Part shown: in pieces, positions 9,710 to 34,716 of the stretch
How positions within the stretch are numbered: the first letter of the stretch is position 1
Layout of the letters: each line of letters opens with the position of its first letter
DNA from: an uncultured Maribacter sp.
GTDB lineage: Bacteria; Bacteroidota; Bacteroidia; Flavobacteriales; Flavobacteriaceae
Direction of reading: 5' to 3'
Assembly (NCBI RefSeq): GCF_947495965.1
Contig: NZ_CANMBB010000001.1
Coordinates: 310,001 to 374,000, forward strand
Length of the DNA stretch: 64,000 bases
Made by a program: the position numbers and the translations under genes
The notes under the pieces: model-generated
The model's database searches: none
Told to the model about the DNA's origin: nothing
Seen by the model: the letters and a program-made list of their open reading frames with translations, nothing else

Positions 9710-10010
9710 TTATATTCTATGCATGCAAGATATAAAATTACGTATAAATACGTAGTAAATATATCATAATTGTTTAGGGCTTAAAAAACAGAATTCTCAA
9801 AAAACAATAGTTCTAAACAAGAAATATGTATAACAAATCTATACAATTACGTAGACTATACCTTAATACTAAAACCCTAGTTTATATTTTTAATTTCTAA
9901 ATAATTGCTCTTAAAATTACCTTTTTTTATCGTAGGAAAAATTACAATTTACCTAAATAAATATCTTAACAATTAGGAGTTTTTGGCATACTAATTGTCG
10001 CCTTTCTGAA
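9710..10010. other. Intergenic region upstream of nitrate reductase
   Basis: This spacer of about 300 bases separates the divergent nitrate reductase and beta-barrel genes. The left part holds the nitrate reductase promoter and operator (9733-9754). A single extra TACGTA occurs at 9848-9853 without a partner half-site. The remainder is AT-rich. I see no convincing ORF, hairpin terminator or RNA gene in it, and no clear -7 box for the rightward gene. Confidence 0.6.
9733..9754 (-). promoter_or_regulatory. Nitrate reductase promoter and TACGTA operator
   Basis: On the minus strand TACGTATTTATACGTA (9754 to 9739) is a 7-2-7 inverted repeat of TACGTAT. Its last TA is the first TA of the -7-like box TAATTTTA at 9740-9733. 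The 16-bp element matches the consensus TAMGTAWWWATACGTA shared with four other promoters of the nitrate island. Confidence 0.7.
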
Positions 10011-10655
10011 ATGATTAAAATTTTCTTGTATTGCCTTTTCGTATTTCCTGTTTTGGTTTTTAGCCAATTTTCCACTCCAAAAGTATTTGGTGAAATTGGC
10101 GGCTTCTATGAAGAACAATTTGAACCTATTCCAAACGTATATTTAAAATTGTCTGCTGGGGCTGAATTGTTTTCCTATAAATTCTTAGCTCCTGAAATTG
10201 ATATTTCATATTATAAAGGTAATGATGAAGATGAAAATTCAGATTTTGACAACCTTGGAATGGTAAACTACAAATCTTTTTTAGAACGGGATGCCAGTGC
10301 TGTTATTTGGGGTTTTGCTCCTAAATTATTCTATGGTGATGAAGAATATCGTTTGGTACTAATACCTAAATATAGTTTCGGAACTATTCATGCAACTGGA
10401 AATTTAATGGATTCTAATTCTCTTGAAATTGAAAAAAAATCGAAAGCAAATATTCATTTTTGGTCTTTTGCATTTGGGATTGAAGGCTACGGATGGTCAG
10501 ACAATACCGTATGTGGCCTTTATCTAATTTACACAGGATTTAATGCAGGGAAAGCACTAAACAAACTAGATTTTTCCAACGAAAATTATAATACCAAAGC
10601 AATTGGTTTAAGTTTTAGAATTGCTTACAATTTTAAAAAAAATAAACACAAGTAA
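10011..10655 (+). CDS. Hypothetical secreted or outer-membrane beta-barrel protein
   Basis: The 214-residue product starts with a signal peptide (MIKIFLYCLFVFPVLVFSQF, cleavage probably after the Ser of VFS). The mature part is rich in alternating aromatic and polar strands such as YLKLSAGAELF and IGLSFRIAYNF and ends with a strand followed by a Lys-rich tail. This suggests a small outer-membrane beta barrel. I do not recognise a named family and see no catalytic motif. It is divergent from nitrate reductase and separated from the next gene by about 210 bases, so it is probably monocistronic. No link to nitrate metabolism is shown beyond adjacency. Confidence 0.7.
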   Translation: MIKIFLYCLFVFPVLVFSQFSTPKVFGEIGGFYEEQFEPIPNVYLKLSAGAELFSYKFLAPEIDISYYKGNDEDENSDFDNLGMVNYKSFLERDASAVIWGFAPKLFYGDEEYRLVLIPKYSFGTIHATGNLMDSNSLEIEKKSKANIHFWSFAFGIEGYGWSDNTVCGLYLIYTGFNAGKALNKLDFSNENYNTKAIGLSFRIAYNFKKNKHK

Positions 10656-10838
10656 TAAATTAGATTGAAATTATCTTAGTAAACTTTTCTTTAATTAAAG
10701 CACAAAGTATAATTACTGAAAATCGAAGAAATTTAAACCTATAAACGCACTTGCAAGACCACTTTAATTCTATTAAAATTATATATTTTACTACACCTAA
10801 AATTAACCTTACTAAGCAATACTTCTTTACAATTAGTC

Positions 10839-10846
10839 TAATTTTG
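10839..10846 (+). promoter_or_regulatory. -7 box of the FUSC-family gene
   Basis: TAATTTTG is an exact TAnnTTTG match 18 bases before the TTG start at 10865. This supports that unusual start and gives a leader of only about a dozen bases. Confidence 0.6.
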
Positions 10847-10864
10847 CATTCTAATTAATAATTT

Positions 10865-13126
10865 TTGAAAGAAAAACTAAAACAACTAGAGTTATTTCTA
10901 AAAAGCACCAACTTTGAAAGAGGAATTAAAGTTGGCGTTGGTATTATAGTTCCTTTTACACTACTCTATTTTTTAGGGTATTTTGAATATGCCCCTGCAG
11001 TTGTTCTCGGTTTATTTTTAAATGTTCCTGGAGATATTCCTGGAAGCGCAAAACGTAAAGTAAATGCCATATTAATTAGCATAGGACTAACTATGGTTAT
11101 TACTGCCATTATCCTTTTTTCAAAACCTTTTTTACCCCTTTTATTAGTAGCCCTTACTGTTATTTCGTTTTTTGTTTCTCTAATTTCAGTTTACGGATTT
11201 AGAGCCTCTTTAGTATCCTTTTCTGGCTTATTAGCAATGGTACTAGCATTTGCAATACAAAAAGAAACGGCACAAGAAATAATGTTGCAAATTGCTTTAA
11301 TGGGTATTGGTGGTCTTTGGTATTTATTTGTAACCTTTATTTTTAAAAAAATTACTCCAAAAAAAGACCAAAACCAATTACTATCAGATACACTTTTACT
11401 TATTGGTGAATATTTAAAATTACGAGGAAAATTACTAACTAAAGAGGCCAAACGTGATGACCGTCTTAAGAAAACCTTTGCCCTGCAACACCAAATAAGT
11501 GAAAAACATGAAACGTTAAGAGAAGCATTACTTACAGATCGTAAACGTTCTGGACGCTCCCGATACGAGGAAAAACAACTATTAATTTTTATTTCCTCTA
11601 TAAATATATTAGAATTAATAGAAGCAAAACATTTAGATTATAAAATGATTGATGCCATTTTTGGCGAGCGAAAAGAATTTTTAAAAGCTTCTAAAAAGTT
11701 AAATAAAATTATGGGAAATCATTTAATTCGATTGTCAGAATTATTGATTCAGAAAGATAAAATTCCTAATAAAAATACGCTACTAAAGGCTCTCTCAGAA
11801 GCTAACAATTCTATCACAAATTATATAGATACTATAAAGTTACCCGAAGCGCGTGAGGGAGCTCTAGTATTAAAAAACTTATACGATTACCAAGAGCAAC
11901 TTGTCTATGAAATAAGGGCAATTAGGCGTGTAATGGCTAATGTAAAAAGTGCCTCTAAAGTATCTTTAAAAAAACAAGATTCCAATCAGTTTTTAACGCT
12001 ACAGGAATATAATATAAATATTCTTCTTCAGAATTTTAGTCTAAATTCTTCCATGTTTAGACACTCTTTGCGACTTACTATTGCATTGGTTTTTGCATAT
12101 TTACTCGGCTTTGTTTTTAATATCCAAAACACTTATTGGATTTTACTTACTATTATTGTTATTATGCGTCCTAGTTATGGTTTAACAAAAGAACGTTCCA
12201 AAGACCGTATTATTGGTACACTTATTGGCGCTGCAGTTGCCGTTGGCATTGTACTTATTACTCAAAACATAATAATCTATTCTGTTCTAGCAATTGTATC
12301 GTTAATTTTAGCTTTCGCTTTAGTACAACAGAATTACAAATTTGCCGCCTTCTTAATTACCATTAGTGTTATATTCATGTATTCTTTAGCTAACCCTAAT
12401 GCTTTTGAAGTAATACAATACCGTGTACTTGATACTATTATTGGTGCAACCATATCTATAGTTGCTAACTACCTACTTTTTCCAAGTTGGGAAGTAAATA
12501 ATATAAAACAGGTACTTCTAGAAACTTTAAAAATGAACAGGGAATATCTTTTAGCAATGCAAAACCTTTATAAAGAACCCTCAAAAAACAGATTGCCTTA
12601 TAATTTAGCTAGAAAAGAAGCCTTTTTAGCTATTAGTAATTTAAATGCGGCGTTTCAGCGTTTAACACAAGACCCAAAATCTAAGCAAAAAGAATTTCAA
12701 TTAATTTATGAAATTGTAACCCTTAACCAAACAATGATTTCTGCTATTGCGTCTATAGGAAATTTTATAATAAACCATAAAACTACTCCTGCTTCTAAAG
12801 ACTTTAATAATCTTATAAAAAAGATTTCTATTAGTTTACAATTATCTTTAAACAGTCTAGAATCTAATGAAGATAAAAATAAAATTACAGAAGAGGTCAT
12901 TGAAGATGCTCAGGAGAAATTATTAGACAAATACACAAAATTATCTAATTTAAGAGACAAAAATATTGAGCAAGGTAAGACAGAAATAGATACAGCAACT
13001 CTCCATGGTCTACAAGAAGCCTTCTTAATATCTAACCATATGAGCTGGTTAAGAACGCTTTCCGAAAATTTACAAAAAGCTACTAAAAAATATCGTTCTT
13101 CTATGGAGCATACTTCGTATAGATAA
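10865..13126 (+). CDS. FUSC/YccS-type inner-membrane protein
   Basis: A 753-residue membrane protein with two similar halves. Each half has a cluster of hydrophobic helices (about 20-160 and 405-525) followed by a long charged helical region, the layout of the FUSC/YccS family. The segment NTYWILLTIIVIMRPSYGLT is typical of the second FUSC domain. Relatives include the AaeB aromatic-acid efflux subunit, but no substrate can be assigned here. The start is TTG (10865); no in-frame ATG lies nearby, and a consensus -7 box at 10839-10846 fits this start. Neighbours are unrelated small genes, so it is likely a single-gene unit. Confidence 0.88.
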   Translation: MKEKLKQLELFLKSTNFERGIKVGVGIIVPFTLLYFLGYFEYAPAVVLGLFLNVPGDIPGSAKRKVNAILISIGLTMVITAIILFSKPFLPLLLVALTVISFFVSLISVYGFRASLVSFSGLLAMVLAFAIQKETAQEIMLQIALMGIGGLWYLFVTFIFKKITPKKDQNQLLSDTLLLIGEYLKLRGKLLTKEAKRDDRLKKTFALQHQISEKHETLREALLTDRKRSGRSRYEEKQLLIFISSINILELIEAKHLDYKMIDAIFGERKEFLKASKKLNKIMGNHLIRLSELLIQKDKIPNKNTLLKALSEANNSITNYIDTIKLPEAREGALVLKNLYDYQEQLVYEIRAIRRVMANVKSASKVSLKKQDSNQFLTLQEYNINILLQNFSLNSSMFRHSLRLTIALVFAYLLGFVFNIQNTYWILLTIIVIMRPSYGLTKERSKDRIIGTLIGAAVAVGIVLITQNIIIYSVLAIVSLILAFALVQQNYKFAAFLITISVIFMYSLANPNAFEVIQYRVLDTIIGATISIVANYLLFPSWEVNNIKQVLLETLKMNREYLLAMQNLYKEPSKNRLPYNLARKEAFLAISNLNAAFQRLTQDPKSKQKEFQLIYEIVTLNQTMISAIASIGNFIINHKTTPASKDFNNLIKKISISLQLSLNSLESNEDKNKITEEVIEDAQEKLLDKYTKLSNLRDKNIEQGKTEIDTATLHGLQEAFLISNHMSWLRTLSENLQKATKKYRSSMEHTSYR

Positions 13127-13209
13127 TCCTCCTTTTTAACATTTAAAAAAGAGTACCTAATTACTTTAGAAATATGCTTAATTTAGACTAAATATTACAT
13201 TTTACTTAA

Positions 13210-13602
13210 ATGAGTAAAACTTTAAACATAGAAGAAAGAAAACCTATTTGGATTGCCTTATCCAATTTTTATCTGGATACCAAACTTGAAGAATATGTCT
13301 TAAAATCCATTGCAAAAAAAATTATAGAAAGTCCATACTCTTTAAAGAAAGTAAAAGAAATTAATACCTATGAGCTTTTTCCGGTTTTACATTATAACTT
13401 GATAAGTTTTGCAGGTGTCTGGACTGGTTTCGATGAAGATTGGCTAATAAATAGCATTATAGAGTCCTTATCTAAAAGAAATAAATTAAAAACTATTATC
13501 ATTAAAGCTTATTTTCAAATTAATAAAAGAATGTTTGCTACGTATTGGGAAAAACTAGAAAAAGTGTATAACACTATAAAACAAGACTCCAAATCTTCTT
13601 GA
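13210..13602 (+). CDS. Conserved hypothetical protein, DUF7079-like
   Basis: This small soluble protein of 130 residues contains the segments IEERKPIWIALSNFYLDTKL and YELFPVLHYNLISFAGVW. They look like a family of uncharacterised proteins (I believe DUF7079, not certain). It has no signal peptide, membrane helix or catalytic motif that I can see. It lies alone between the FUSC gene and a lipoprotein gene in the same direction, with gaps of about 80 bases on both sides. The function is unknown. Confidence 0.65.
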   Translation: MSKTLNIEERKPIWIALSNFYLDTKLEEYVLKSIAKKIIESPYSLKKVKEINTYELFPVLHYNLISFAGVWTGFDEDWLINSIIESLSKRNKLKTIIIKAYFQINKRMFATYWEKLEKVYNTIKQDSKSS

Positions 13603-13683
13603 AATTAGTTAAAATAATAAAAGGAATTTAGGAGTATTTAAAACCTAGAAGTGTTGAATTTAAAAAGACTGCGAACTATACTA

Positions 13684-14247
13684 ATGAATAAATTTATAAT
13701 TGCAACGCTATTATTAATTGGATTTATATCCTGTAAAAATTCTGAAGAAAAAATAGGGAAACTTACAATTGCAAAAGAATACTACAAAGCCCTTAACAAT
13801 TCTAATGCTATAAGAATAGAAGCTTTATTAAGAGACAGCCTTTTAACTAAAGAGAGTAATTATAAACAAACATTTTCTATAGCAGAATATAAAGAATGGC
13901 TCCAATGGGATGCTATATTTGAACCTACTTACAAAACACTTGACATTAAAGAAGAAAACGGAGTTGTTAAAGCCACCATTTCCAAAATGGATAAGAGAAT
14001 ATTATTTTTACATGAAGAACCAATTGTAACTAAGCAAACTATACATTTTAAAAATGCTAAAATAAGTAGTATTGAAACAACAGATTATCTAAATTTTAAG
14101 GATACAATATTTATTAAAAACAGAACTAAACTTTTAAACTGGGTTAGTACAAAACATCCAGAATTGGATGGTTTTATTTATGACCAAACTAAAAAAGGAG
14201 CGCAAAAATATATAAAAGCAATAAATTTATATAATAAAGAAAATTAA
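13684..14247 (+). CDS. Hypothetical lipoprotein
   Basis: The start was moved to the ATG at 13684 because it gives a clean lipoprotein signal (MNKFIIATLLLIGFISCKN, lipobox Cys at 17). An in-frame TTG at 13651 would place 11 charged residues in front of it. The mature 170 residues contain AKEYYKALNNSN, which resembles the first helix of SnoaL/NTF2-like proteins. The rest is a set of short strands, compatible with that fold, but the match is weak. It would be anchored in the periplasmic face of a membrane. The function is unknown. The downstream metallo-beta-lactamase gene follows after 46 bases in the same direction. Confidence 0.65.
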   Translation: MNKFIIATLLLIGFISCKNSEEKIGKLTIAKEYYKALNNSNAIRIEALLRDSLLTKESNYKQTFSIAEYKEWLQWDAIFEPTYKTLDIKEENGVVKATISKMDKRILFLHEEPIVTKQTIHFKNAKISSIETTDYLNFKDTIFIKNRTKLLNWVSTKHPELDGFIYDQTKKGAQKYIKAINLYNKEN

Positions 14248-14293
14248 GTCCTTTTAATCTAAAAAACAGAATTATTATAATTTTTATTTTTCT

Positions 14294-15034
14294 ATGTACA
14301 AGGCTCTTTTATCTCTACTTAGTATCTTTATTTGCTACTCCTGTTCTACCTCAAAAAAAACTGTAAAAGGGGTAACTACAGATAATTTAAAAATTAAACA
14401 GGTTAGTACTAACACTTTTGTTCATACCTCCTATTTACAAACTAACGACTTTGGAAATGTTGCCTGTAATGGTATGGTGTATTTTAATGAAGATGAAGCT
14501 ATAGTTTTTGATACTCCCACAAATAATACAGTTTCTAGACAACTCATAAATTGGATAGAAAACGTACAAAAAAAGAAACTTACAGCCGTAGTAGCTACTC
14601 ATTTTCATAACGATTGTTTAGGAGGACTTGAAGAATTTCATGCAAACGGGACAAAAAGTTACGCTAGTACTAAAACAATTTCACTAGCAAAGAAAAACAA
14701 AGTTATAGTGTTGCCCCAAGAAGGGTTTACTAAAGAATTAAAACTAATTATTGGGAAAAAACCTGTTTTTACAAACTTTTATGGAGAAGGGCATACCAAA
14801 GACAATGTAGTTAGTTACATCCCAGAAGAACAAGTTCTTTTTGGAGGTTGCCTAATTAAAGCTCTAAATGCAACAAAAGGCTATTTAGGAGATGCTAATG
14901 AAAATGAATGGTCTGCAACTGTGGCTAAAATAAAAAAAGAAAAACCAGAGATAAAAGTGGTTATTCCTGGCCATGGAAAAATAGGTGGCACAGAACTTTT
15001 GGACTATACAATTAGTTTATTTTCTACAAATTAA
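14294..15034 (+). CDS. Subclass B1 metallo-beta-lactamase, lipoprotein
   Basis: The 246-residue protein has every zinc ligand of subclass B1 enzymes. H103, H105 and D107 are in THFHNDCLGGLEEFH, H167 in GEGHTKDN, C186 in LFGGCLIK and H227 in IPGHGKIGG. The Cys ligand, the Lys three residues later (K189) and the GYLGDAN segment distinguish it from glyoxalase-II-like relatives. By family it would hydrolyse beta-lactams, including carbapenems, in the periplasm. The N-terminus carries a lipobox (IFICYSC, Cys 17), so it is probably membrane-anchored like NDM enzymes. No mobile element is near, so it looks chromosomal. Activity and spectrum are unknown. Confidence 0.85.
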   Translation: MYKALLSLLSIFICYSCSTSKKTVKGVTTDNLKIKQVSTNTFVHTSYLQTNDFGNVACNGMVYFNEDEAIVFDTPTNNTVSRQLINWIENVQKKKLTAVVATHFHNDCLGGLEEFHANGTKSYASTKTISLAKKNKVIVLPQEGFTKELKLIIGKKPVFTNFYGEGHTKDNVVSYIPEEQVLFGGCLIKALNATKGYLGDANENEWSATVAKIKKEKPEIKVVIPGHGKIGGTELLDYTISLFSTN

Positions 15035-15098
15035 ATAAAGCCATTCTTAAGTAAACCAATACCTTACAAAATCACTATTTAGATTTATTATAAATAAT

Positions 15099-15129
15099 TT
15101 GGAGAACTAAGCTTCAAAGAATACATTTG
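15099..15129 (+). promoter_or_regulatory. Promoter of the TonB-dependent receptor gene
   Basis: TTG at 15099-15101 and the exact -7 box TACATTTG at 15122-15129 are separated by 20 bases, a normal Bacteroidota promoter. The receptor start codon follows 40 bases later. I could not identify a convincing Fur box. Confidence 0.55.
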
Positions 15130-15169
15130 TTAAAAACAAATTATTTTTAATAAGTCTAAATAAATATAA

Positions 15170-17569: not shown

Positions 17570-17579
17570 TTTTAAACTT

Positions 17580-17622: not shown

Positions 17623-17637
17623 TAACAAAATAGCAAA

Positions 17638-21033: not shown

Positions 21034-21711
21034 TTAGATACTAGTTAAATTATAATCTTGGGCTTTTTTAGAAAGCTCCATTAAATTTTTAACCTCCATT
21101 TTGCGCATTAAATTAAACCTATGCGTTTCTACAGTACGCTTACTATTTTGTAATTTTTCTGATATTTCTTTGTTTGTTAGTCCAGATAATACTAACTCAA
21201 GTACTTTTAATTCTTTATTTGTAAGATTAAAAGGAGTTTCTTTTTCTGCATCTTTACTAACCTCTTCTGAGGCTTCCTTAGAAGGGTTTAATAAATTATT
21301 TACCAATACATTAGATATTGCTCCACTAAAATACTTACCTCCTTCTCTAACCGTATGTATAGCCTTTATAAATTCTGTTTTACCAGTATCTTTTAATAAA
21401 TAGCCATTTGCACCAGCACTAACAGACTTTAAAATATATTCTTCCGAATCGTGCATAGAAAGTATTATAGTTTTAACCGCTACATTTTGTTTATTTAAAA
21501 GTGCAACAGCATCTATTCCATTTAAAACAGGCATACGTATATCTATGATTAAAACATCGGGTTTTTTATCTTTAACCATTGCAATAGCTTCTTGTCCATT
21601 AGAAGCTTCCCCAATAACCACTAAGTCCTGTTCACTTTCTAATAATGCTCTAATACCGTCTCTTACTAAAGAATGATCATCTGCTAGAACTATGCTTGTA
21701 GTTGTACTCAT
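21034..21711 (-). CDS. NarL/FixJ-type response regulator
   Basis: The 225-residue regulator has a receiver domain (about 5-125) with the acidic pair D11-D12 (LADDHS), the phosphoacceptor D57 (LIIDIRMP) and the conserved Lys in LLKDTG. A LuxR/NarL-type helix-turn-helix follows (about 155-220; LTNKELKVLELVLSGLTNKE, RTVETHRFNLMRKM). It stands next to the porin and nitrate ABC transporter genes without an adjacent kinase. The PilJ-type histidine kinase of the NirBD operon 17 kb away is the likely partner, which is inference. This regulator is the best candidate to bind the 7-2-7 TACGTA elements. A single TACGTA lies in its own promoter spacer. Confidence 0.92.
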   Translation of the reverse strand: MSTTTSIVLADDHSLVRDGIRALLESEQDLVVIGEASNGQEAIAMVKDKKPDVLIIDIRMPVLNGIDAVALLNKQNVAVKTIILSMHDSEEYILKSVSAGANGYLLKDTGKTEFIKAIHTVREGGKYFSGAISNVLVNNLLNPSKEASEEVSKDAEKETPFNLTNKELKVLELVLSGLTNKEISEKLQNSKRTVETHRFNLMRKMEVKNLMELSKKAQDYNLTSI

Positions 21712-21729: not shown

Positions 21730-21757
21730 CAAATATAATTTAAAATACGTAGTACAA
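21730..21757 (-). promoter_or_regulatory. Promoter of the NarL-type regulator gene
   Basis: On the minus strand TTG (21757-21755) is followed after 17 bases by the exact -7 box TATATTTG (21737-21730). A lone TACGTA half-site (21746-21751) lies in the spacer. Confidence 0.6.
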
Positions 21758-25993: not shown

Positions 25994-26018
25994 AATTATT
26001 AGTTTAAATAGTTAGTGT

Positions 26019-27389
26019 TTAGTCTTTGTTTCCTATTGAAAAACTATTGATGTACCCTATTGGATCTTTTGCATCATATTTAGTACCGTCTATAAAATCT
26101 GTTGTAGCTGGCTTATACCCGTCTGTATCTGGAATATCTGTTGCAGGAATATGCCCTTCTGTTACTAATATTTTCGCTGCTTTTTCCCAGATATCTGGTC
26201 TATAAATATCTTTGATAGTATTTGAGTACCACTCTACTGGCTTAGCATCTGGAATTTGCCCCCATCTTCTCATTTGTGTTAAGAACCAAGTACCATCAGA
26301 ATAGAATGGGTAAGTTGCATTATACTTGTAGAATACATTAAAGTCTGGCATTGCACGCTTGTCTCCTTTTTCGAACTCAAAAGTACCTGTCATAGAGTTT
26401 GCTAAAACCGCTTCATCTGCACCTACGTATTGCGACATAGATAATATTTTTACAGCTTCAGCTCTATTACTTGGCTCATCTAACCATTTACCAGCTCTAA
26501 TAAGTGCTTTAGTAACTGCTACTGCCGTATTAGGATTTTCCTCAACAAATTTCTTTGTCATTACAAATACTTTTTCTGGGTTATTTTTCCAGATATCATA
26601 GTTTGTTGTAACTGGCACACCAATACCTTTAAATACTGCTTGTTGGTTCCATGGTTCTCCTACACAGTATCCATATATTGTACCTGCTTCAAGAGTAGCT
26701 GGCATTTGTGGCGGAGGAGTTACTGATAATAATACCTCAGCATCAATCTGCCCTTGCACATTATCTTTTGTGTACATTCCTGGGTGAATACCCGCTGCTG
26801 CTAACCAATAACGAATTTCATAGTTATGTGTAGATACTGGAAATACCATTCCCATTTTAAAAGCTTTACCAGAATTTTTATACTCTGTAATTACTGGTTT
26901 TAAAGCATCTGCTTTAATTGGGTGTACTGGTTTACCATCTGCTCCTTTAGGGACATTTGGCTTCATTTTAGACCAAACATCATTAGATACCGTAATTCCA
27001 TTTCCATTTAAATCCATAGAAAAAGGAGTAACCAATTCTGCTTGTCTACCAAAACCTGCTCCTGCAGCAATTGGCTGTCCTGCTAACATATGAGAACCAT
27101 CTAACTGACCATCAATAACACGATCTAAAATATTTTTCCAGTTAGATTGCGCTTCTACAGAAACAAACAATCCTTCTTCTTCAAAAAAGCCTTTTTCTTT
27201 TGCAATGGCTAAAGGCGCCATATCTGTTAATTTTATAAAGCCAAAAGTTAATTGTGGTTTTTCAATTTCTAATGTTGTAGCTGCAGCTTCAGTTGCTGTT
27301 TCCGTAGCTGCCTTTTTTGTTTTATCACCACAGGATGCCGCTAGGACAAAAAGTAACAAAAAAGCGGTTTTTTTAAAGATAGTTTTCAT
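26019..27389 (-). CDS. nrtA: Nitrate-binding lipoprotein, NrtA-type
   Basis: A 456-residue solute-binding protein of the NrtA/SsuA/TauA class. It has a lipoprotein signal peptide ([11 protein letters not shown], Cys near 20) and an Ala/Thr-rich linker, followed by the NrtA-type body with [38 protein letters not shown] and [15 protein letters not shown]. The matching of long segments with NrtA rather than taurine or sulfonate receptors supports nitrate as ligand, and so does the location beside nitrate and nitrite reductases. It is anchored outside the inner membrane and hands the anion to NrtB. It heads the operon behind a TACGTA-type operator that begins just downstream of the -7 box. Confidence 0.92.
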
Positions 27390-27409
27390 ATTTATAATTT
27401 TAAATGTTC

Positions 27410-27446
27410 TACGTATTAATACTTATTCAAGACAAATATATACGTA
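27410..27446 (-). promoter_or_regulatory. nrtA promoter and TACGTA operator
   Basis: On the minus strand the -7 box TATATTTG (27440-27433) is preceded directly by TACGTA (27446-27441). It is followed after 7 bases by TAAGTATTAATACGTA (27425-27410), a copy identical to the narK operator. The full site would lie at or just after the transcription start, a position that favours repression. Confidence 0.7.
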
Positions 27447-27637
27447 ACACTAAAAGTATTCTATGGCATTACCCATCTTAAATCCGTCTTTTACACCATA
27501 GTTATACCATGAAACTAACAGTTTAAAAACTATCAAAAAACACATTTACACAATAACACTATGTTTTACAGCACTTTACAAAAAATAATCAATACGTATA
27601 ATCTAATAAAAAAGGCTACGTAACTACTACTTAGAAT
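27447..27637. other. Intergenic region between nrtA promoter and redox-operon terminator
   Basis: This AT-rich spacer has no supported gene. It holds two more TACGTA words (27593-27598 and 27617-27622) without full partner half-sites. With those in the nrtA promoter and the terminator, this 290-bp region has five TACGTA words. Confidence 0.5.
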
Positions 27638-27677: not shown

Positions 27678-27698
27678 TATAATATATGTACTCTTATT

Positions 27699-28412
27699 TT
27701 ATTTCTTATTTAAATTTAATTTAATCCATTCTGGCTCAGACAAACCAATATATTTTTTATCCGTTCCATAAGGATCTTTCCCTCCTTTTAAATAAGCATT
27801 AATTGTTTGCATAGGAATGGTATCTTGTAATTTTGTTGGAACTTCATATCTATGATTTCCATGAAAATCATGACACTGTATACATGTATTCCATTGTTCT
27901 TCTGCAATAAGTGTTTCATGAGCAACATCTATAGGATCCTCTTCTACTTTTAAATCTTGATGACAGTTCATACAATAATTAACAGCTGCAACAGTAACCC
28001 TCTCTCCATTATGTTCTGAGTGGCAAGTAATACAAGTTGTAGCGTCTATTACTTTTATAATTTCTTTAAATCTTGGTTCCGAAAAACGATGATTAGGGTG
28101 CCTGTCATTTGGTCTATCATGGCATTGCAAACAATTTTCAACCGTAACATCTTGGGTTCCAAAATCTACATTATGTTCTCTCATACCAATTGCAAATTGT
28201 ATATTAGATTGGATTTGTTGGGATAAATTTCCTTTAGCATCGGCATGGCAAGTAACACAAGATAAATCATCATGCCCTTCATTCATTGGACCAAGTGAGA
28301 TATATTCCTCAGAAGACTTTAAGGTTAAAAACAAAACAACACATATTCCTATTAGCACCCCTACAATACCTCCAGTAAATTGTCTTTTTCTTAATGGACT
28401 TATTTTAAACAT
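27699..28412 (-). CDS. Membrane-anchored pentahaem c-type cytochrome
   Basis: The 237-residue protein has one N-terminal membrane anchor (about 12-31) and five CxxCH haem motifs, with Cys pairs at 52/55, 94/97, 127/130, 147/150 and 177/180. Several extra His residues (H46, H80, H105, H108, H134) could act as distal ligands, as in cytochrome c3 or NapC/NirT-like proteins, but I cannot assign it to a named family. It should lie in the periplasm. It is last in the globin operon, five bases after a NADH-type flavoprotein gene. It probably accepts or donates electrons across the periplasm; the terminal partner is unknown. Confidence 0.88.
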   Translation of the reverse strand: MFKISPLRKRQFTGGIVGVLIGICVVLFLTLKSSEEYISLGPMNEGHDDLSCVTCHADAKGNLSQQIQSNIQFAIGMREHNVDFGTQDVTVENCLQCHDRPNDRHPNHRFSEPRFKEIIKVIDATTCITCHSEHNGERVTVAAVNYCMNCHQDLKVEEDPIDVAHETLIAEEQWNTCIQCHDFHGNHRYEVPTKLQDTIPMQTINAYLKGGKDPYGTDKKYIGLSEPEWIKLNLNKK

Positions 28413-28417
28413 ACCTT

Positions 28418-29446
28418 TTAAAAATTAATTACAACATTTTCACTAGCAGGATAGCTTATACAGGTTAATATTTTACCATCTTCTACTTCTTCTGGCGGCA
28501 TAAAATGCCCCTCTGTCATTACCACATCTCCTTTAGAGCAAGATGCTTTACAAGTAGAACACATACCAGACCTACAAGAATATGGTAAAGCAATATTATT
28601 TACCATTGCCATTTGTAAAATAGATTTGTTTTTAGGAACTTTAATTTTATAGGATTCATTATCATAATTAATCTCTACATCGCATTCTTGATTTTCTCCG
28701 ACAACTGCTATTTTTGGACTTGCAAAAACTTCGACCTTAATATTAGAAGGAGAAACGTTCTTAGTATTTAAAATTTCTTTAACACACTCCATATATCCAA
28801 AGGGACCACAAATCATATATTCATTTGAATTGAATTTTAAATTGTGCTTTTCCATAATTGCTATCAAAACTTCCTCTGTAAGCAAACCTGAATAATAATT
28901 TAATGGAGCATTATCACTTTTAGAAAGTATATGTTCTACTCTGAATGAGGAAGCATACTTCTTAGTTAAGTTTTCAATCTCTTTATTAAAAATAATCCCT
29001 TCGTAATTTTGATTAGCATACACCAAGAGAATTTTAGAATTTGGTTCTTTTTCTAGAACAGATTTTACAATAGAAAATATTGGGGTTATACCACTACCAC
29101 CAGCAAAAAAAACATATTGTTTTGTAGTCTCTTTTTTTGGGGCTAAACAAAAACTTCCTGTAGGTTTATCTACTTCATACTTATCTCCTACTTTAAAATT
29201 ATCATGAATATAATTAGATACCAACCCCTGATCTACCCTCTTTATTGTTATTCTTAAATCTGAATCGGTATAAGGATTACTACTAAAGGAGTAGGCTCTT
29301 TTATGCACTGTATTATCTATAGGAACATTAATAGACATAAACTGCCCTGGTTTATAGGCTAGCCTTTTAAAAAAATTTCCATTTTTAAAACAGATGGTTA
29401 CAGCATCTTTTGTCTCCTGTATTATTTCTTTTACTAATAACTTCAT
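28418..29446 (-). CDS. FAD/NAD(P)-dependent oxidoreductase with C-terminal [2Fe-2S] domain
   Basis: The 342-residue soluble protein has three domains. First is an FAD-binding barrel (about 1-100) with the R50-A-Y-S motif. Next is a NAD(P)-binding domain (about 105-240) with GGSGITP at 116-122. Last is a plant-type ferredoxin domain with C291-x4-C296-x2-C299-x29-C329. Relatives are PaaE-, HmpX- and phenol-hydroxylase-type reductases. It should move electrons from NAD(P)H through FAD and [2Fe-2S] to a partner. In this operon likely partners are the globin or the adjacent di-haem membrane protein, whose gene starts 8 bases upstream. It is not the usual flavohaemoglobin, where globin and reductase are fused. 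Confidence 0.9.
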   Translation of the reverse strand: MKLLVKEIIQETKDAVTICFKNGNFFKRLAYKPGQFMSINVPIDNTVHKRAYSFSSNPYTDSDLRITIKRVDQGLVSNYIHDNFKVGDKYEVDKPTGSFCLAPKKETTKQYVFFAGGSGITPIFSIVKSVLEKEPNSKILLVYANQNYEGIIFNKEIENLTKKYASSFRVEHILSKSDNAPLNYYSGLLTEEVLIAIMEKHNLKFNSNEYMICGPFGYMECVKEILNTKNVSPSNIKVEVFASPKIAVVGENQECDVEINYDNESYKIKVPKNKSILQMAMVNNIALPYSCRSGMCSTCKASCSKGDVVMTEGHFMPPEEVEDGKILTCISYPASENVVINF

Positions 29447-29454
29447 TTATAGAC

Positions 29455-29934
29455 TTATTTATAATAAAACACCATTACTATATGGAAACACATTAAAATG
29501 GAGATGATTATTGAAAATGCCACATGAAAAATCATCCAACCTTTAAATAAAATTTCTCCTTTACTTTTTATAACATCTAAATTTATATACCCCAAAAGAG
29601 CATTAGCAAAAAACAAATAAGACATAAGAGCTATATAGCCATATCCTAATTTTACACTATGAATATAAAAAAGAAGAGGACTCATTGCTCCTAGCCACTT
29701 ATGAATTGTTGCCATTTTCATGGCACTTTGTCTAAACCTTTTAATTATACGTGAAAAGGTTAACAGCCACTGAAAAATGATAAACAATGCCACTCCTAAA
29801 CCAGACCATCTTTTATAGTTTTCTTGTTGTTGCAGTTCTTGTAACCACACCCATTCTATATTTCCAAAATAGAATACAAAAAAGGCGGATAACAATACCA
29901 ATCCTAAAACAGTAGAGTTGTTATTACTTTTCAC
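29455..29934 (-). CDS. Four-helix membrane protein, probable di-haem b type
   Basis: The 159-residue protein has four hydrophobic segments (about 8-24, 44-60, 80-115 and 132-156). Two His pairs are spaced 14 residues apart: H78/H92 and H137/H151. That spacing is the bis-haem pattern of ferric-reductase/NOX-type transmembrane domains, in which two b haems are stacked across the membrane. I do not recognise a named family. The gene sits between a haem lipoprotein gene (41-base gap) and an FAD/[2Fe-2S] reductase gene (8-base gap). The arrangement fits transmembrane electron transfer from cytoplasmic NAD(P)H to periplasmic cytochromes. Haem binding is inferred from His spacing only. Confidence 0.7.
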   Translation of the reverse strand: MKSNNNSTVLGLVLLSAFFVFYFGNIEWVWLQELQQQENYKRWSGLGVALFIIFQWLLTFSRIIKRFRQSAMKMATIHKWLGAMSPLLFYIHSVKLGYGYIALMSYLFFANALLGYINLDVIKSKGEILFKGWMIFHVAFSIIISILMCFHIVMVFYYK

Positions 29935-29975
29935 TAATATAAAATCTAATAGAGGTTAAAAAATTGCTATTTAGT

Positions 29976-30809
29976 TTACTCCCTTACAGCTACTAATTTT
30001 TTCATTGTTTTGTAAGAAGTTAATTTCTTAACACTATCTAAAAACACTTCAGATGTTGGCAAGTAATTCCCTTCTACTGGCCATTTATCTCCAATAATTG
30101 GTTTTTCACTTTCTTTAAATGCAGCTATTTCATTTAAGTATTCTACATATATATCTACAGTACCCATTGCATAAGAGTTTAACACATCTACTGTTTCTTT
30201 ATAGGTTAAAGAATCTTTAGGATATTGCCATGTTGTAGCCCCCATTACGTCTCCTAGTTTCCAGTCATCCTTTGTCGTTTGCGGATGTTTATTATGACAT
30301 GTAACACATGCTCCTGCACTAGCCAAATCTGCAAACATAGCGGTATGTAATTTTGTATCCTCTTCATAAAAAAATTGTGGTTTTTGGTCAACTTTTATTT
30401 TTTTAAAAAGCTCTGCTTGTTTCCCTTCAAACTTATTTGCTGCATTTACAGGAAAATCAGAACCCAAATATAGTCCTAATGGCACTGGGCTTTTTCTTAT
30501 ACTTGTTGCTACACCTCTTAAAAAAAGAGCTGGTAAAGGTCCAGCTTCAACATCATCTTTTCTCCAATCCTCATCAAACTTCATACCTTGTAATTTTCCT
30601 TTTCCAACAATAGCTTTAGTGTACAGGGTTCTTGTAACATCATTCTCTTCTGCAACCATTTCCAGAACTTCTTCCACAGAAAAAGCATTATTAGCCATCT
30701 CCCCATCTTTTACTTTTTCTTCAGGAACCCCTCCACATGAATTAAGAAGAATAAGACTAGTTAATAAAATAGCGATTACTAAAACTGGATTTTTTTCTAT
30801 ATTTTTCAT
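29976..30809 (-). CDS. DUF3365-type monohaem c lipoprotein
   Basis: The 277-residue lipoprotein has a lipobox Cys at 25 (LILLNSC) and one haem c motif, C168-V-T-C171-H172 with NKHP after it. The preceding segments PVPLGLYLGSDFPVNAANKF and QFFYEEDTKLHTAMFADLAS match the DUF3365/Tll0287-like fold, a PAS-like monohaem domain. Family members are linked to sensing or electron transfer. It is the second gene of the globin operon (20 bases after the globin). It is expected on the periplasmic side of a membrane. Partner and role are unknown; redox sensing or electron relay are both possible. Confidence 0.82.
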   Translation of the reverse strand: MKNIEKNPVLVIAILLTSLILLNSCGGVPEEKVKDGEMANNAFSVEEVLEMVAEENDVTRTLYTKAIVGKGKLQGMKFDEDWRKDDVEAGPLPALFLRGVATSIRKSPVPLGLYLGSDFPVNAANKFEGKQAELFKKIKVDQKPQFFYEEDTKLHTAMFADLASAGACVTCHNKHPQTTKDDWKLGDVMGATTWQYPKDSLTYKETVDVLNSYAMGTVDIYVEYLNEIAAFKESEKPIIGDKWPVEGNYLPTSEVFLDSVKKLTSYKTMKKLVAVRE

Positions 30810-30829
30810 ACGAGTAAATTTTAGGCTTA

Positions 30830-31243
30830 TTAATAAGATGCTTTTATCATTACGTCAGACATAGTTCCATAAACCGATGCCCATGCTTCTTTAACTTCTG
30901 GAGTAAAATCATCTCCTAACCCCACAGAAAGTGTATCTAACAAAGCTGCGCCTACAGTATTATAATGAGAGGGCTCTACTTTGTATTCCACGTGTTTTTT
31001 TCCAAGATTTTCTAAAACAGGAACCAACATATCTAGATTACTTAATCCTGCAACGGCACTACCTAACATAGTCATTAACTTATTTCCTTGTACTGCCATT
31101 TTTTCTTGATCCGATGGAAATAAAGGCTTTAATGCTGGATCCAGCTCAAATAACTTAGTATAAAATATCTCTGCTGCTGTAGAGGCAATTGGTTTTACCT
31201 TTTCGAATGATTCTTGAACAAGAGAAATTGTTTTTTCTTCCAT
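30830..31243 (-). CDS. Single-domain bacterial globin (Vitreoscilla haemoglobin type)
   Basis: The 137-residue globin has the proximal His H84 in LGKKHVEYKV, a Tyr at the B10 position (FYTKLF, Y28) and a Gln near E7 (VQGNKL). These match the haemoglobin domain of flavohaemoglobins and VHb, proteins that oxidise NO to nitrate or handle oxygen. No reductase domain is fused, but a separate NAD(P)H reductase gene lies three genes downstream in the same operon. It heads the five-gene redox operon. Its promoter has a TACGTA operator immediately after the -7 box, which ties it to nitrate or nitrite metabolism. NO dioxygenase activity is a family-based inference. Confidence 0.9.
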   Translation of the reverse strand: MEEKTISLVQESFEKVKPIASTAAEIFYTKLFELDPALKPLFPSDQEKMAVQGNKLMTMLGSAVAGLSNLDMLVPVLENLGKKHVEYKVEPSHYNTVGAALLDTLSVGLGDDFTPEVKEAWASVYGTMSDVMIKASY

Positions 31244-31285
31244 AATAGATTGTTTTAGTTTAATGGTTATTCTAAAAATAAAGAT

Positions 31286-31320
31286 TACGTATTTTACGTA
31301 TTTTTACTTAGACAAATGTA
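31286..31320 (-). promoter_or_regulatory. Globin operon promoter and TACGTA operator
   Basis: On the minus strand the exact -7 box TACATTTG (31320-31313) is followed after two bases by TAAGTAAAAATACGTA (31310-31295). A further TACGTA at 31291-31286 follows. The 16-bp element fits TAMGTAWWWATACGTA and would cover the transcription start. Confidence 0.7.
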
Positions 31321-31420
31321 AAGACCAAAACTTAAATATTGTATGATTAAAGACAGAAGTAAATATTTATTATTTCATAAAGCAACAATGTTTTTCACCC
31401 TTATTAAATATGATTTTAAA

Positions 31421-31452
31421 CCATAAAAAAGGCTGCATAAATGCAGCCTTTT
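31421..31452 (-). terminator. Terminator of the narK-fnr operon
   Basis: AAAAGGCTGCAT pairs perfectly with ATGCAGCCTTTT around a two-base loop, with more T on the minus-strand side. It lies 47 bases after the stop of the FNR-type regulator. Confidence 0.85.
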
Positions 31453-31498
31453 CAGAAAGGTTTGAAAAAAATAAACAACTAACTATTACAAACACTTA

Positions 31499-32251
31499 CT
31501 ATGTATCTAAATAGAAATTGTGTTCCGATATTTCTCTTTTGAGAAGTTTTACATCTGGAATACCTATACGCTTTCCTTTTGCTATTACTAAGTTTTCTTT
31601 CTTTAAAACTGATAAAATACGTATTACTTGCTCTTCTGTTGTGCCAGCATAATCTGCATATTCTTTTCTACTTAATTGAAGGTTTATATAACCATTAAGT
31701 TGCCCAAATTTTCTATTAACATAGAGAAGTGTATCTATTACTCTTTCCCTAACTGTCATTTGAGATATTGATTTTACTTTAGCCTCACTCTTATTGAGTT
31801 CGTTTGCATAAAAAAGCATTAAATCATAGGTAAAACTTGCATCTTCTTTTAAAGCATATTGCAACAAATTTTTAGAAAAATAACATAATGTAGTATTTTC
31901 TAAGGCTATTGCAGATATGGAATAATATTCCTCAGTTCCAAAACCTCTGTGACCAATTATTTCTCCTTCTTTTGCAAAACGTACTATTTGCTCTCTACCA
32001 TTAATACCTGTTCTAAAAACTTTTACTTTTCCTTTTAATATAAAAAACAATCCATTTACAGGTGCTCCTTCCATAATAAACTGCTGTCCTTTTTTACAGT
32101 TTATGTCTGTTTTTTCATAAGAAAAGTCTAAAACTATTTTAGATGTAATGTTTTTTTTCATCAAACACTTTACATTTTCACACGTATCACAAGAAATACC
32201 AGACATGGACTTTCTTCTCATTTTTTGTATGTTATCTGTGTTTGATTGCAT
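31499..32251 (-). CDS. FNR-type CRP-family transcriptional regulator
   Basis: The 250-residue regulator has a cyclic-nucleotide-binding-like domain (about 50-160) and a winged helix (about 165-235). Cysteines at 21, 24, 29 and 123 match almost exactly the [4Fe-4S] ligands of E. coli FNR (20, 23, 29, 122), so it probably senses oxygen or NO. The recognition helix reads TTEEQVIRILSVL, with the Glu and Arg that contact the conserved G-C pair of FNR half-sites and Ile where FNR has Ser. It starts 40 bases after narK with no promoter between, so it is co-transcribed and under the narK operator. It is a candidate for binding the ATGAT-N4-ATCAT sites of hemN and the porin. Confidence 0.9.
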   Translation of the reverse strand: MQSNTDNIQKMRRKSMSGISCDTCENVKCLMKKNITSKIVLDFSYEKTDINCKKGQQFIMEGAPVNGLFFILKGKVKVFRTGINGREQIVRFAKEGEIIGHRGFGTEEYYSISAIALENTTLCYFSKNLLQYALKEDASFTYDLMLFYANELNKSEAKVKSISQMTVRERVIDTLLYVNRKFGQLNGYINLQLSRKEYADYAGTTEEQVIRILSVLKKENLVIAKGKRIGIPDVKLLKREISEHNFYLDT

Positions 32252-32291
32252 ATCTACTGTTTTAAATTACTAATGCTCGGCTACTAAACCA

Positions 32292-33683
32292 TTATTTATC
32301 TGCCTTTAAAACCAATTCTGGACTCTCTTCTGCTACAGGAGCAAACTTAATAGTCAATGCTAATATTCCTGCAAGAACAACAAAACCTCCAATGATAAAA
32401 TAACCGCTAGAAACCGCTGATGCTGATGCCGCCATTTGTGCAGATTTAACTGCCTGTTCTCCAAGCTCAGAATTGGAAGCTATTGCAGCACTTTCTGCTA
32501 CTGCCGATTTAGATTTTAAAAGCATAGCTGCAACAAAGGCACCTACGTTACCTCCAGCTCCTACAATTCCAGAAATAGAGCCTATTGCTTTTTTATTTAT
32601 AAAAGGAACTACAGAAAATGTTGCACCTTCTGCCATTTGTACACTTAAACTAAAGGCTATTAAAAATCCCATACCCACTACTATACTAGTTGTAGTAGAA
32701 AAAGTGGTAAGAACAATACCCTCTATAGCAAGAATTACAGCCAAGAAAATTACACGACCTCTTAAACCTTTGAGTCTTCCAAACATGTCTCCAAAATACC
32801 CTCCTAAGGTTCTTGCAAAAATGTTCATTAAAGCAAAAGACAGCACTAAATTTCCTGCAAAACTCCTACTTAATCCAAATCTATTTTGCAAATAATCGTC
32901 CATAGTACCATAAACGGTAAGTTCCATTCCAAAACAAGCAGCGTATATTAAAAAAAGTATCCAAACTCTATAATCTTTTAAAACTTCTAAAAAACCTATT
33001 TCGTCTTTTTTACTTGTAGGTAACTCTCCTCTTTCTTTTAATTCTTTATAGTTGCCTTCTGGCGTATCTTGTGTAAAAAAGAAATATACAATACCCATTA
33101 TAAAACAAGTAACACCAGCAATAATCATAGAATACCTCCAAGCATTTTCCGCTTCGGCAATTCCCAAACTCACTACCGCAGCCGCAATAATTGGCATTCC
33201 TAATCTATTGGCTCCACCTCCAAGGTTACCCCATCCTGCAGAAGTTGCGTTTGCTGTACCAACAATATTTGATGCAAACATTATAGAGGTATGCACTTGG
33301 GTAATTACAAAAGAAGCCCCAATAAAACCTATAAATAACCTACATATTAAAAATTGTTCTGGCGTTTGCACAAACCCTATTAATATAACTGGCAAAGCTC
33401 CAATCATTAACATCCAGGTGTAACATAAACGCGGTCCATATTTATCACATAATTTACCAATTGCTAATCTTGCAAATACAGTCCCTGAAACGGCAAGAAT
33501 AATAGAGTTCCATTTTTGTTCTGGTGTTAACCCTAAATCCTTAACTACATCTGGCATAAAAGGCACTATACCAAACCATGAAAAGAAGCACAAGAAGAAT
33601 GCTATAGAGGTTATCCAAAATGTTCTTGTAGAAATACTTTTAAAATTAAGTAACTGTAGCTTTGTTGCTTTTTTATTTTCCAT
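32292..33683 (-). CDS. narK: NarK/NasA-type nitrate/nitrite transporter (MFS)
   Basis: A 463-residue inner-membrane transporter with 12 predicted helices. The two nitrate-signature motifs of the nitrate/nitrite porter family are visible: SAGWGNLGGGANRLG in the first half and GIVGAGGNVGAFVAAML in the second. Arg residues in the conserved helices (ICRLFIG, NRLG) fit substrate-binding positions. It would import nitrate or exchange nitrate for nitrite. It is followed after 40 bases by the FNR-type regulator gene, and they share a terminator at 31421-31452. Its promoter has one full TACGTA operator and a second looser one. Transport direction cannot be told from sequence. Confidence 0.92.
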   Translation of the reverse strand: MENKKATKLQLLNFKSISTRTFWITSIAFFLCFFSWFGIVPFMPDVVKDLGLTPEQKWNSIILAVSGTVFARLAIGKLCDKYGPRLCYTWMLMIGALPVILIGFVQTPEQFLICRLFIGFIGASFVITQVHTSIMFASNIVGTANATSAGWGNLGGGANRLGMPIIAAAVVSLGIAEAENAWRYSMIIAGVTCFIMGIVYFFFTQDTPEGNYKELKERGELPTSKKDEIGFLEVLKDYRVWILFLIYAACFGMELTVYGTMDDYLQNRFGLSRSFAGNLVLSFALMNIFARTLGGYFGDMFGRLKGLRGRVIFLAVILAIEGIVLTTFSTTTSIVVGMGFLIAFSLSVQMAEGATFSVVPFINKKAIGSISGIVGAGGNVGAFVAAMLLKSKSAVAESAAIASNSELGEQAVKSAQMAASASAVSSGYFIIGGFVVLAGILALTIKFAPVAEESPELVLKADK

Positions 33684-33685
33684 GA

Positions 33686-33735
33686 TACGTATTTATATAC
33701 TTAAATTGTAAATCAAAACTACGTATTAATACTTA
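33686..33735 (-). promoter_or_regulatory. narK promoter and TACGTA operators
   Basis: On the minus strand TAAGTATTAATACGTA (33735-33720) is identical to the nrtA element, and its last TA is the first TA of the exact -7 box TAGTTTTG (33721-33714). A second, more widely spaced pair, TAAGTA-N6-TACGTA, lies downstream at 33703-33686, next to the start codon. Confidence 0.75.
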
Positions 33736-33840
33736 AAAATAAAATTGAATTCTAAAAAAGTGAGAAATTTTATGAAAATGAAAAAAAGTAGGTGCGTAAA
33801 AACAGAAAATCATAAATAAAACTATTAAAAAACATAGAAA

Positions 33841-34614
33841 TTACATGTAATCATGCAGGACTCGTTGTAACTCTTCTTCAAAAAATGCAGGATGTTCTGA
33901 TACAACATTACCAATTATAATAATACCTGGCTGTGTAACATCTACTTTACGATACAAACTCATAGCCTCTCCTAAAGTTCCCACAACACAGGTTTCATTT
34001 TTCAAAGTTCCATTTTGTATAAGTGCCACAGGAGTAGCTTCTCCTCTATACTTAGACACATTCTTAGCTATAGCATCAAATTTACGAACCCCCATTAAAA
34101 TAACCATAGTTGCAGAGGATTGCGCAGCTAACTTTAAATCTTCAGAAAAGCTATTGTCTTTTTTTGTTGCAGTCATTACCCAAAAACTACTACTAACTCC
34201 CCTTTTAGTAACCGGAATACCTTGGCTTTGCGGAACAGCAATTGCACTAGTTACCCCAGGAACTACAGTTACTGGAATACCAAAATTTTCTGCATATTCT
34301 ATTTCTTCACTAGCTCTACCAAAAACAAAAGGATCCCCACCTTTTAAACGTACTACATGACCACATTCAAATGCTTTTTCTACTAACAACTTATTTATAG
34401 AATCTTGTGTATAAGAATGCTTATTACATCTTTTACCTACGTATATTTTTGGAATATTTTCATCAATCTCACATAAGAGTTCTTTACTAATTAAAGCATC
34501 ATATAAAATTACATCTGCAGACTGTAAAAGCTTAAAACCTCTACGCGTTATTAGGTCGCTACTACCAGGACCAGCTCCTACTAAAGATATTCTTGGTTTT
34601 TTGCTTTTAATCAT
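33841..34614 (-). CDS. cobA: Uroporphyrinogen-III C-methyltransferase (SUMT)
   Basis: A 257-residue SAM-dependent enzyme that methylates uroporphyrinogen III twice to precorrin-2, the first step towards sirohaem. It has the family motifs LVGAGPGSSDLITRRG at the start, VVRLKGGDPFVFGRASEE in the middle and GVTSAIAVPQSQGIPVTKRG. The length is normal for stand-alone SUMT. It is divergent from nirB and needed for its cofactor; the second sirohaem gene is at 40162. Its promoter carries a half TACGTA element on the -7 box (34656-34667), linking it to the same control as nirB. Confidence 0.95.
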   Translation of the reverse strand: MIKSKKPRISLVGAGPGSSDLITRRGFKLLQSADVILYDALISKELLCEIDENIPKIYVGKRCNKHSYTQDSINKLLVEKAFECGHVVRLKGGDPFVFGRASEEIEYAENFGIPVTVVPGVTSAIAVPQSQGIPVTKRGVSSSFWVMTATKKDNSFSEDLKLAAQSSATMVILMGVRKFDAIAKNVSKYRGEATPVALIQNGTLKNETCVVGTLGEAMSLYRKVDVTQPGIIIIGNVVSEHPAFFEEELQRVLHDYM

Positions 34615-34655
34615 AATTTCTAATTTTTTAGGACTAACAATTGTGAATTCTGCAA

Positions 34656-34667
34656 CAAAACTACGTG
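34656..34667 (-). promoter_or_regulatory. cobA -7 box with half TACGTA element
   Basis: The minus strand reads CACGTAGTTTTG, where TAGTTTTG (34663-34656) is an exact -7 box. The left half-site is poor, so this is a weak relative of the narK element (TACGTAGTTTTG). Confidence 0.5.
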
Positions 34668-34694
34668 TTTATTTTGATAAAATTATATAAAAAA

Positions 34695-34716
34695 TACGTA
34701 ATTATACGTATTTTTG
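34695..34716 (+). promoter_or_regulatory. nirB promoter and TACGTA operator
   Basis: TACGTAATTATACGTA (34695-34710) ends on the TA of the exact -7 box TATTTTTG (34709-34716). No TTG box is found at the usual -33 distance. The start codon follows 25 bases later. Confidence 0.75.

Follow-up and report, generated by a model that had tools for sequence, protein, structure and literature searches.

A shared inverted-repeat element in the core promoters of a flavobacterial nitrate island, a candidate operator of its NarL-family regulator

The stretch of DNA considered here, 64,000 nucleotides from an uncultured Maribacter sp. (contig NZ_CANMBB010000001.1, positions 310,001 to 374,000) and referred to below as the window, carries a nitrate island with nirB, narK, nrtA, a fused nitrate reductase gene (nasC), and a globin operon. 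As had been predicted from the sequence, the island also encodes a NarL-type response regulator (21034) and a NarX-like sensor kinase (38325), together with a Crp/Fnr-family protein (31499; Table 1). Five of its promoters share a 16-bp element, an inverted repeat of the form TAMGTA-N4-TACKTA, which on comparative sequence evidence is probably, at about 0.82, the operator of regulator 21034.

An exact pattern search of the window returned five sites, and these are the five positions of the original prediction. The nasC copy matches on both strands, the nrtA, globin, and narK copies on the minus strand, and the nirB copy on the plus strand. No exact match arose in 100 dinucleotide shuffles of the window, a zero that is partly circular as the regular expression was derived from the same five sites. 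The genome as a whole (3,904,503 bases) has no exact match beyond these five and none to the reversed control. Allowing up to three mismatches gives no enrichment in the window (25 copies vs. 22.2 expected), and the looser palindrome TAMGTANNNNTACKTA matches four further places in the genome, with five matches for its control. Two of the four lie inside open reading frames (ORFs), one is intergenic, and one sits 22 bp upstream of a gene that we read as a putative formyl-tetrahydrofolate cyclo-ligase; all four look like background.

Table 1. Promoter elements and genes of the nitrate island, in window coordinates
Feature	Position	Strand	Remark
Operator before nirB	34695..34710	+	Class A, last TA common to -7 box; exact match
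Operator before narK	33720..33735	-	Class A; exact match
Operator before nasC	9739..9754	-	Exact match
Operator before nrtA	27410..27425	-	Class B, downstream of -7 box
Operator before globin operon	31295..31310	-	Class B
Extra half-site TACGTA downstream of globin operator	31286..31291	-	
Single half-site TACGTA abutting nrtA -7 box	27441..27446	-	
Half-site TACGTA upstream of response-regulator gene	21746..21751	-	Full element not present there
cobA -7 box TAGTTTTG fused to half-site CACGTA	34656..34667	-	
nirB -7 box TATTTTTG	34709..34716	+	
narK -7 box TAGTTTTG	33714..33721	-	
nrtA -7 box TATATTTG	27433..27440	-	7 bases before element
Globin operon -7 box TACATTTG	31313..31320	-	2 bases before element
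nasC candidate -7 boxes	9725..9740	-	TAATTTTA (9733-9740) overlaps operator; TATCTTGC (9725-9732)
Putative Crp/Fnr site ATG-N8-CAT at -41.5 of nrtA	27463..27476	-	
Putative Crp/Fnr site CTG-N8-CAT at -41.5 of globin operon	31343..31356	-	
nirB	34742..37258	+	Name from original prediction and own sequence
narK	32292..33683	-	NarK family, 299 bits, just below curated 311.7
nrtA, lipoprotein of ABC nitrate transporter	26019..27389	-	Name from original prediction and own sequence
Globin, first gene of globin operon	30830..31243	-	
Nitrate reductase with NirB-like C-terminal part (nasC)	6161..9709	-	
NarL-family response regulator (Response_reg + GerE)	21034..21711	-	Proposed operator binder
NarX-like sensor kinase (PilJ, PAS, HisKA_3, HATPase)	38325..40172	+	
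Crp/Fnr-family regulator, FNR-like cysteines	31499..32251	-	Proposed binder of -41.5 sites

Among 395 genomes of the order, nirB is present in 36 (E <= 1e-200), and these together with the genomes of earlier searches supply 46 readable nirB promoters. The exact form TANGTANNNNTACNTA precedes nirB in 45 of the 46, the copy in genome G241 having one mismatch, and the element ends 23-41 bp upstream of the ATG. In the four nirB-less genomes searched alongside, palindromes number 0, 0, 1, and 0 against 2, 0, 3, and 4 for the controls. The targets were established by comparing 80 loci from named genomes around the regulator gene, the best 80 of a longer list, nine of them from genomes that also belong to our own genome set. 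In these loci the motif gives 218 matches and its reversed control one, and the element stands before nirB (43/44), narK (26/26), nasC (71/73), and nrtA (43/43), and before none of the nrtB (0/40), nrtC (0/38), porin (0/69), or nirD (0/27) genes. It is further found before cobA in 38 of 41 cases, mostly at distances fitting the divergent nirB element.

The same kind of comparison fixes the repeat type and spacing of the element. The half-site TACGTA is its own reverse complement, and the type of repeat is therefore visible only in TAAGTA/TACTTA sites. Such informative repeats (TAAGTA-N4-TACTTA) are inverted in 58 counts (29 places, both strands) and never direct or everted, and the N4 spacer accounts for 632 counts (316 places) vs. 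no more than 54 at each of the other spacer lengths from 0 to 15, in loci that take in some genomes twice. A direct repeat of 10 bp, conceivable as TACGTA mirrors itself, was rejected on the same places (0 direct vs. 29 inverted). Several promoters contain additional half-sites at a 10-bp period. Written as 7-2-7, the element has the geometry of the Escherichia coli NarL operator, two inverted heptamers 2 bp apart, an arrangement that NarL is described as preferring. The original prediction had also matched the heptamer to the NarL consensus, TACYYMT. The geometry stands; the identity does not, as the fourth position is a constant G where the consensus has Y, the third position is A or C in exact sites with TAAGTA common, and the recognition helix is a different one.

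The relation of the element to the core promoter can be judged from the Bacteroidota -7 box TAnnTTTG, which in Flavobacterium psychrophilum spans -12 to -5. The predicted placement of the element against this box holds for nirB and narK, where it ends on the TA of the box, and for nrtA and the globin operon, where it follows after 7 and 2 bases; at nasC the overlapping box TAATTTTA is imperfect, and the alternative TATCTTGC is of the TAnnTTGY type. The half version predicted on the cobA -7 box is present as well (TAGTTTTG at 34656-34663, minus strand, with the half-site directly before it). In relatives, the last two bases of the element double as the TA of an exact TAnnTTTG in 37 of 43 non-redundant nirB promoters, 12 of 18 narK promoters, and 10 of 30 nasC promoters. 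At nrtA the box comes first, with 15-17 bp from its start to that of the element in 16 of 17 promoters, and at globin this distance is 10-18 bp in all nine. Sixteen of the 17 non-redundant nrtA elements end 18-23 bp before the ATG and the remaining one at 70. As transcription starts at or before the ATG, the nrtA (18-23 bp) and nirB elements fall within or close to the footprint of polymerase, whichever box is used.

On this reading of the sequences the promoters form two classes. Class A comprises nirB, narK, nitrate reductase in part of the genomes, and nrtA where it has no Fnr site; here the element or a half-site array mostly runs into the -7 box, and a -33 TTG is absent. In class B (nrtA and globin) the -7 box comes first and the element follows closely, and in both classes the element appears to act inside the core promoter. 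A -33 TTG (spacer 17-21) is found in none of 97 class A promoters vs. 30 of 76 TAnnTTTG boxes before other ORFs, a count used as weak evidence for activation as the 97 are orthologous and hence not independent. Had the -33 TTG been there, it would have spoken for plain repression.

The class A form, the element plus -7 box (TAMGTANNNNTACKTANNTTTG), occurs in 31 of the 36 nirB genomes of the order (62 matches) vs. 5 of the 359 others (5 matches), and its reversed control gives 17 matches in the 395 genomes, none of them in a nirB genome. Among the five nirB genomes without the form, the 16-mer precedes nirB in G008, G407, G416, and G050, with exact TTTG absent at the class A offset, and in G073 the nirB promoter is not readable. 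The five matches outside the nirB list count as chance, because by our reading the genes downstream of four are unrelated, no gene is called after the fifth, and no island gene above 38% identity was found around any of them. The original prediction that the elements form one shared operator is strongly supported by this genome specificity and by the comparative data: in related flavobacterial genomes the motif is concentrated before nitrate genes, and in the genome-wide, locus, and 395-genome counts it does not occur at the same rate before unrelated genes.

A second element is common to the nrtA and globin promoters. Both contain [AC]TG-N8-CAT with the CAT 25 bp upstream of the -7 box, which places the centre at -41.5 if the box lies at -12 to -5, as in F. 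psychrophilum. Position -41.5 is the class II position of CRP/FNR proteins. Among promoters with an exact TAnnTTTG, TG-N8-CA occurs at this single offset in 17 of 18 nrtA, 10 of 12 globin, and 4 of 6 porin promoters, and not in those of nirB (0/38), narK (0/16), nasC (0/15), cobA (0/11), fnr (0/29), or the response regulator (0/21). The right half CAT is at the offset in 34 of 36 non-redundant class B nrtA promoters, 21 of which have the full palindrome. Of the 15 class A nrtA promoters, 12 have an exact box without a -41.5 site and three have no exact box, and in G009 and G050 nrtA has the -41.5 site without the 16-mer. In the best 80 loci, Fnr is encoded in the same locus as nrtA for 17 of the 28 class B promoters and for none of the 15 of class A, although the loci extend to at most about 16.7 kb and a missing Fnr is no proof of absence from the genome; in G306 (L297), the sole class A nrtA genome checked throughout, Fnr is missing genome-wide. 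The -41.5 palindrome is probably the site of Crp/Fnr protein 31499, which has an N-terminal CxxCx4C (CxxCx5C in FNR) and one cysteine aligned to an FNR cysteine. The nrtA promoters (L233-L312) thus take three forms, with Fnr and regulator sites, with a regulator array only (15), or with an Fnr site only (G009, G050), and they constitute a natural rewiring series. Two Fnr-like genes are present in each of G009 and G050 (the L078/L091 pair), and the element lies upstream of only one copy.

By its Pfam domains (Response_reg 7.1e-28, GerE 7e-18) regulator 21034 belongs to the NarL/FixJ family, and its best match among solved structures is E. coli NarL (6.2e-34); at 147 bits it falls below the 250-bit cut-off of the NCBIfam NarL equivalog, which does not indicate strict NarL orthology. 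Among named genomes, the closest by this protein is Maribacter vaceletii (97%). All 14 nirB genomes of the first set encode an orthologue, as do 36 of 36 nirB genomes of the order and all 46 genomes with a readable nirB promoter (14 + 32); the four nirB-less genomes of the first search have none. Outside the order, in a sample of the phylum, 13 genomes have nirB, and a close regulator is encoded near it in G602 (53%) and G587 (50%). The former has an exact element 23 bp upstream of nirB, its end reading TATTATTA with no exact TAnnTTTG, and in the latter, whose locus is 61% GC, TACGTA occurs four times in the 61 bp upstream of nirB, but not at the exact N4 spacing. The element is found in none of the other 11 nirB promoters, whose best copies have 2 to 4 mismatches; in two of these genomes, G598 and G648, the regulator beside nirB is more distant (42 and 40%). 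The half-site also shifts with the recognition helix of the regulator. TACGTA predominates in 14 of 15 genomes with the ET-type helix SKRT-V/I-ETHRFN, the fifteenth being a tie, and TAAGTA predominates in 19 of 28 genomes with the AEV-type helix SKRTAEVHRFN or near, with seven ties and two opposite (G063, G352); outside the order, G587 combines an ET helix with TACGTA only and G602 an AEV helix with mixed half-sites. This joint shift is suggestive only, and it would favour regulator 21034 as the binder.

Three other origins of the element were weighed. In the original prediction, Crp/Fnr protein 31499 was offered as an alternative binder, under the reading ACGTA-N4-TACGT. In its favour, the geometry is suitable, HcpR2 has a known CRP/FNR-family motif with N4 spacing, GTAACnnnnGTTAC (PMC1274295), and the element lies upstream of the fnr gene itself in several genomes. 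Yet the 31499 orthologue is missing from 7 of the 36 nirB genomes (G164, G306, G008, G018, G052, G063, and G073), and the element is intact in all six whose nirB promoter can be read; the Fnr helix GTTEEQ-V/A-IR is nearly constant across the genomes in which the half-site varies; and a separate site of FNR geometry stands at exactly -41.5, also in G009 and G050 where nrtA lacks the element, and is not found in the nirB, narK, and nasC promoters examined. The persistence of the element without an Fnr orthologue and the separate FNR-geometry site at nrtA and globin favour regulator 21034, so that 31499 was rejected as the binder of the five elements and its binding is now very unlikely. A third regulator encoded outside the island, such as a ModE-like winged-helix protein, would account for the element before putative ModE-like genes in three genomes and before putative Mo-cofactor genes elsewhere (see below), but in the genomes tested, inside and outside the order, co-occurrence favours the NarL-type regulator, and we regard this explanation as improbable. 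As for chance or a promoter-composition artefact, the word is A+T-rich, partly coincides with the -7 box, and in degenerate form is not enriched in the window; the excess over the reversed control in the best 80 loci and the near-universal occurrence in nitrate promoters, against zero before nrtB, nrtC, porin, and nirD genes, make it negligible.

Several observations weigh against regulator 21034 binding the element as one operator throughout. In the best 80 loci the element precedes fnr in one of seven cases, globin in none of two, and the regulator's own gene in 17 of 81. In our own genome set exact copies stand at 9 of 14 globin promoters (G001, G003, and G007 have one-mismatch copies) and at 18 of 20 nrtA promoters, G009 and G050 being the exceptions; narK has the element in all listed genomes except G009, and nasC lacks it in G021, G024, and G026, where nasC comes after narK. 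The half-site, TAMGTAN, is not the TACYYMT of E. coli. Only two genomes outside the order have a close regulator, one of which (G587) departs from the exact spacing. The correlation of helix and half-site comprises few independent changes, with two contrary genomes and eight ties, and regulator, kinase, and targets travel together, so that co-occurrence alone would also allow an unseen third regulator.

The proposed mechanism assigns sensor kinase 38325 and regulator 21034 to a two-component nitrate system of the narHK/narRR kind. The kinase contains PilJ, PAS_9, HisKA_3, and HATPase_c domains and no HAMP match at E <= 0.001, and its INIAGRQR retains the nitrate motif GxxR of the published P-box consensus; it has the features given for Bacteroidetes narHK (NarX-like, P-box GxxR, PAS, HAMP-free). 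We infer that the kinase would signal nitrate through this motif and that a dimer of the regulator would bind TAMGTA-N4-TACKTA inside the core promoter. At class A promoters the regulator would activate transcription in response to nitrate, taking the place of a -33 element, whereas at class B promoters 31499 probably activates from -41.5 and the regulator would repress this Fnr-driven transcription. The class B layout closely resembles the frdA promoter of E. coli, where NarL binds a 7-2-7 site at -4/+6 and represses, presumably by keeping out both polymerase and the activator FNR; at narG it is described as activating from upstream sites. For this dual sign we put the chances only slightly short of even. 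Class A activation is suggested by the missing -33 and the fixed register to the -7 box, and occlusion by the overlap with the -7 TA. Simple activation sits badly with that overlap and with sites downstream of the -7 box, and simple repression with the missing -33, and both points count against the proposed scheme.

Nearly as good an account, although one we place distinctly below even, is plain repression everywhere by the same binder, which would occlude the core promoter without nitrate and be released by the kinase with nitrate, activation being left to Fnr or to basal promoter strength. The position of the nirB and 16 of 17 nrtA elements in or near the polymerase footprint, the -7 TA shared in most nirB promoters, and the class B elements downstream of the box are all consistent with such occlusion, and a single sign would serve nrtA in both architectures. 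Against it, the lack of a -33 TTG in class A looks activator-dependent, within the limits of the 97 related promoters, and the kinase would need a sign opposite to that of E. coli NarX. Tentatively, and at somewhat less than an even chance, we propose a NarL-family regulator that works from within the core promoter through an operator joined to the -7 box to the exact base and standing in for a -33 element, with nrtA rewired among Fnr-plus-regulator, regulator-only, and Fnr-only forms.

The E. coli NarX-NarL/NarQ-NarP targets include nirB and narK, and the system shares with the island a NarX-type sensor with GxxR, a NarL-family regulator, the 7-2-7 inverted repeat, extra half-sites, and, at frdA, a site close to the start of a promoter driven by FNR. 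It differs in that the kinase here is without a HAMP match, the target genes are assimilatory, the Bacteroidota -7 box is in many cases fused to the element, and the recognition helix in the window's group is SKRT-V/I-ETHRFN and not the TESTVKVHVKH of NarL. A review of nitrate sensors labels such Bacteroidetes pairs narHK/narRR and asks what role the sensors have across organisms; the window pair fits this class, with a nitrate sensor domain and PAS, no HAMP match, and adjoining nitrate genes (PMC8199190, in the part available). That part gives no DNA target or regulon, for which the present analysis supplies a candidate operator. The HcpR2-type CRP/FNR motifs (PMC1274295) share the N4-spaced palindrome GTAACnnnnGTTAC with the element and differ from it in half-site and targets.

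No description of the motif or of a Bacteroidota nitrate operator was recognised in the literature searched, which leaves most subscription journals and preprints outside and is not proof that none is published. Bacteroidota nitrate sensors have been catalogued, and to a catalogue for which this literature gave no DNA target the present analysis would add an operator and its regulator. The listed targets are genes for the reduction and uptake of nitrate and nitrite, to which relatives probably add those for siroheme and Mo cofactor; a second input would be of the Fnr type. An operator fused to the -7 box seems an unusual placement for a NarL-family protein and would inform how such regulators contact the atypical Bacteroidota sigma factor.

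Further genes with the element were noted in relatives, their names resting on our own reading of the translations except for cobA, which was named by match (48% to the cobA of the window) and is a further target there. The element precedes a putative moeA for Mo cofactor in three genomes (L082:3078, L091:12890, and L319:5016), and the element with -7 box precedes a 115-aa putative ModE-like winged-helix gene at L318:5053, L321 (minus strand, 5343), and L323:4538, in the three Flavobacterium-like genomes G296, G160, and G410. In G009 a perfect TACGTAAATATACGTA (L214:3684) lies 83 bp before a putative glutamine synthetase gene, between it and another gene, and hints at a wider nitrogen regulon there; a further element of this genome precedes a putative porin gene.

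The nitrate reductase of the window is a single chain of 1182 aa whose C-terminal part is about 31% identical to the first half of NirB, and it therefore probably carries its own NADH-side domain. The globin operon (27699-31243) also encodes a Tll0287-like protein, a multihaem cytochrome, and a PaaE-like reductase.

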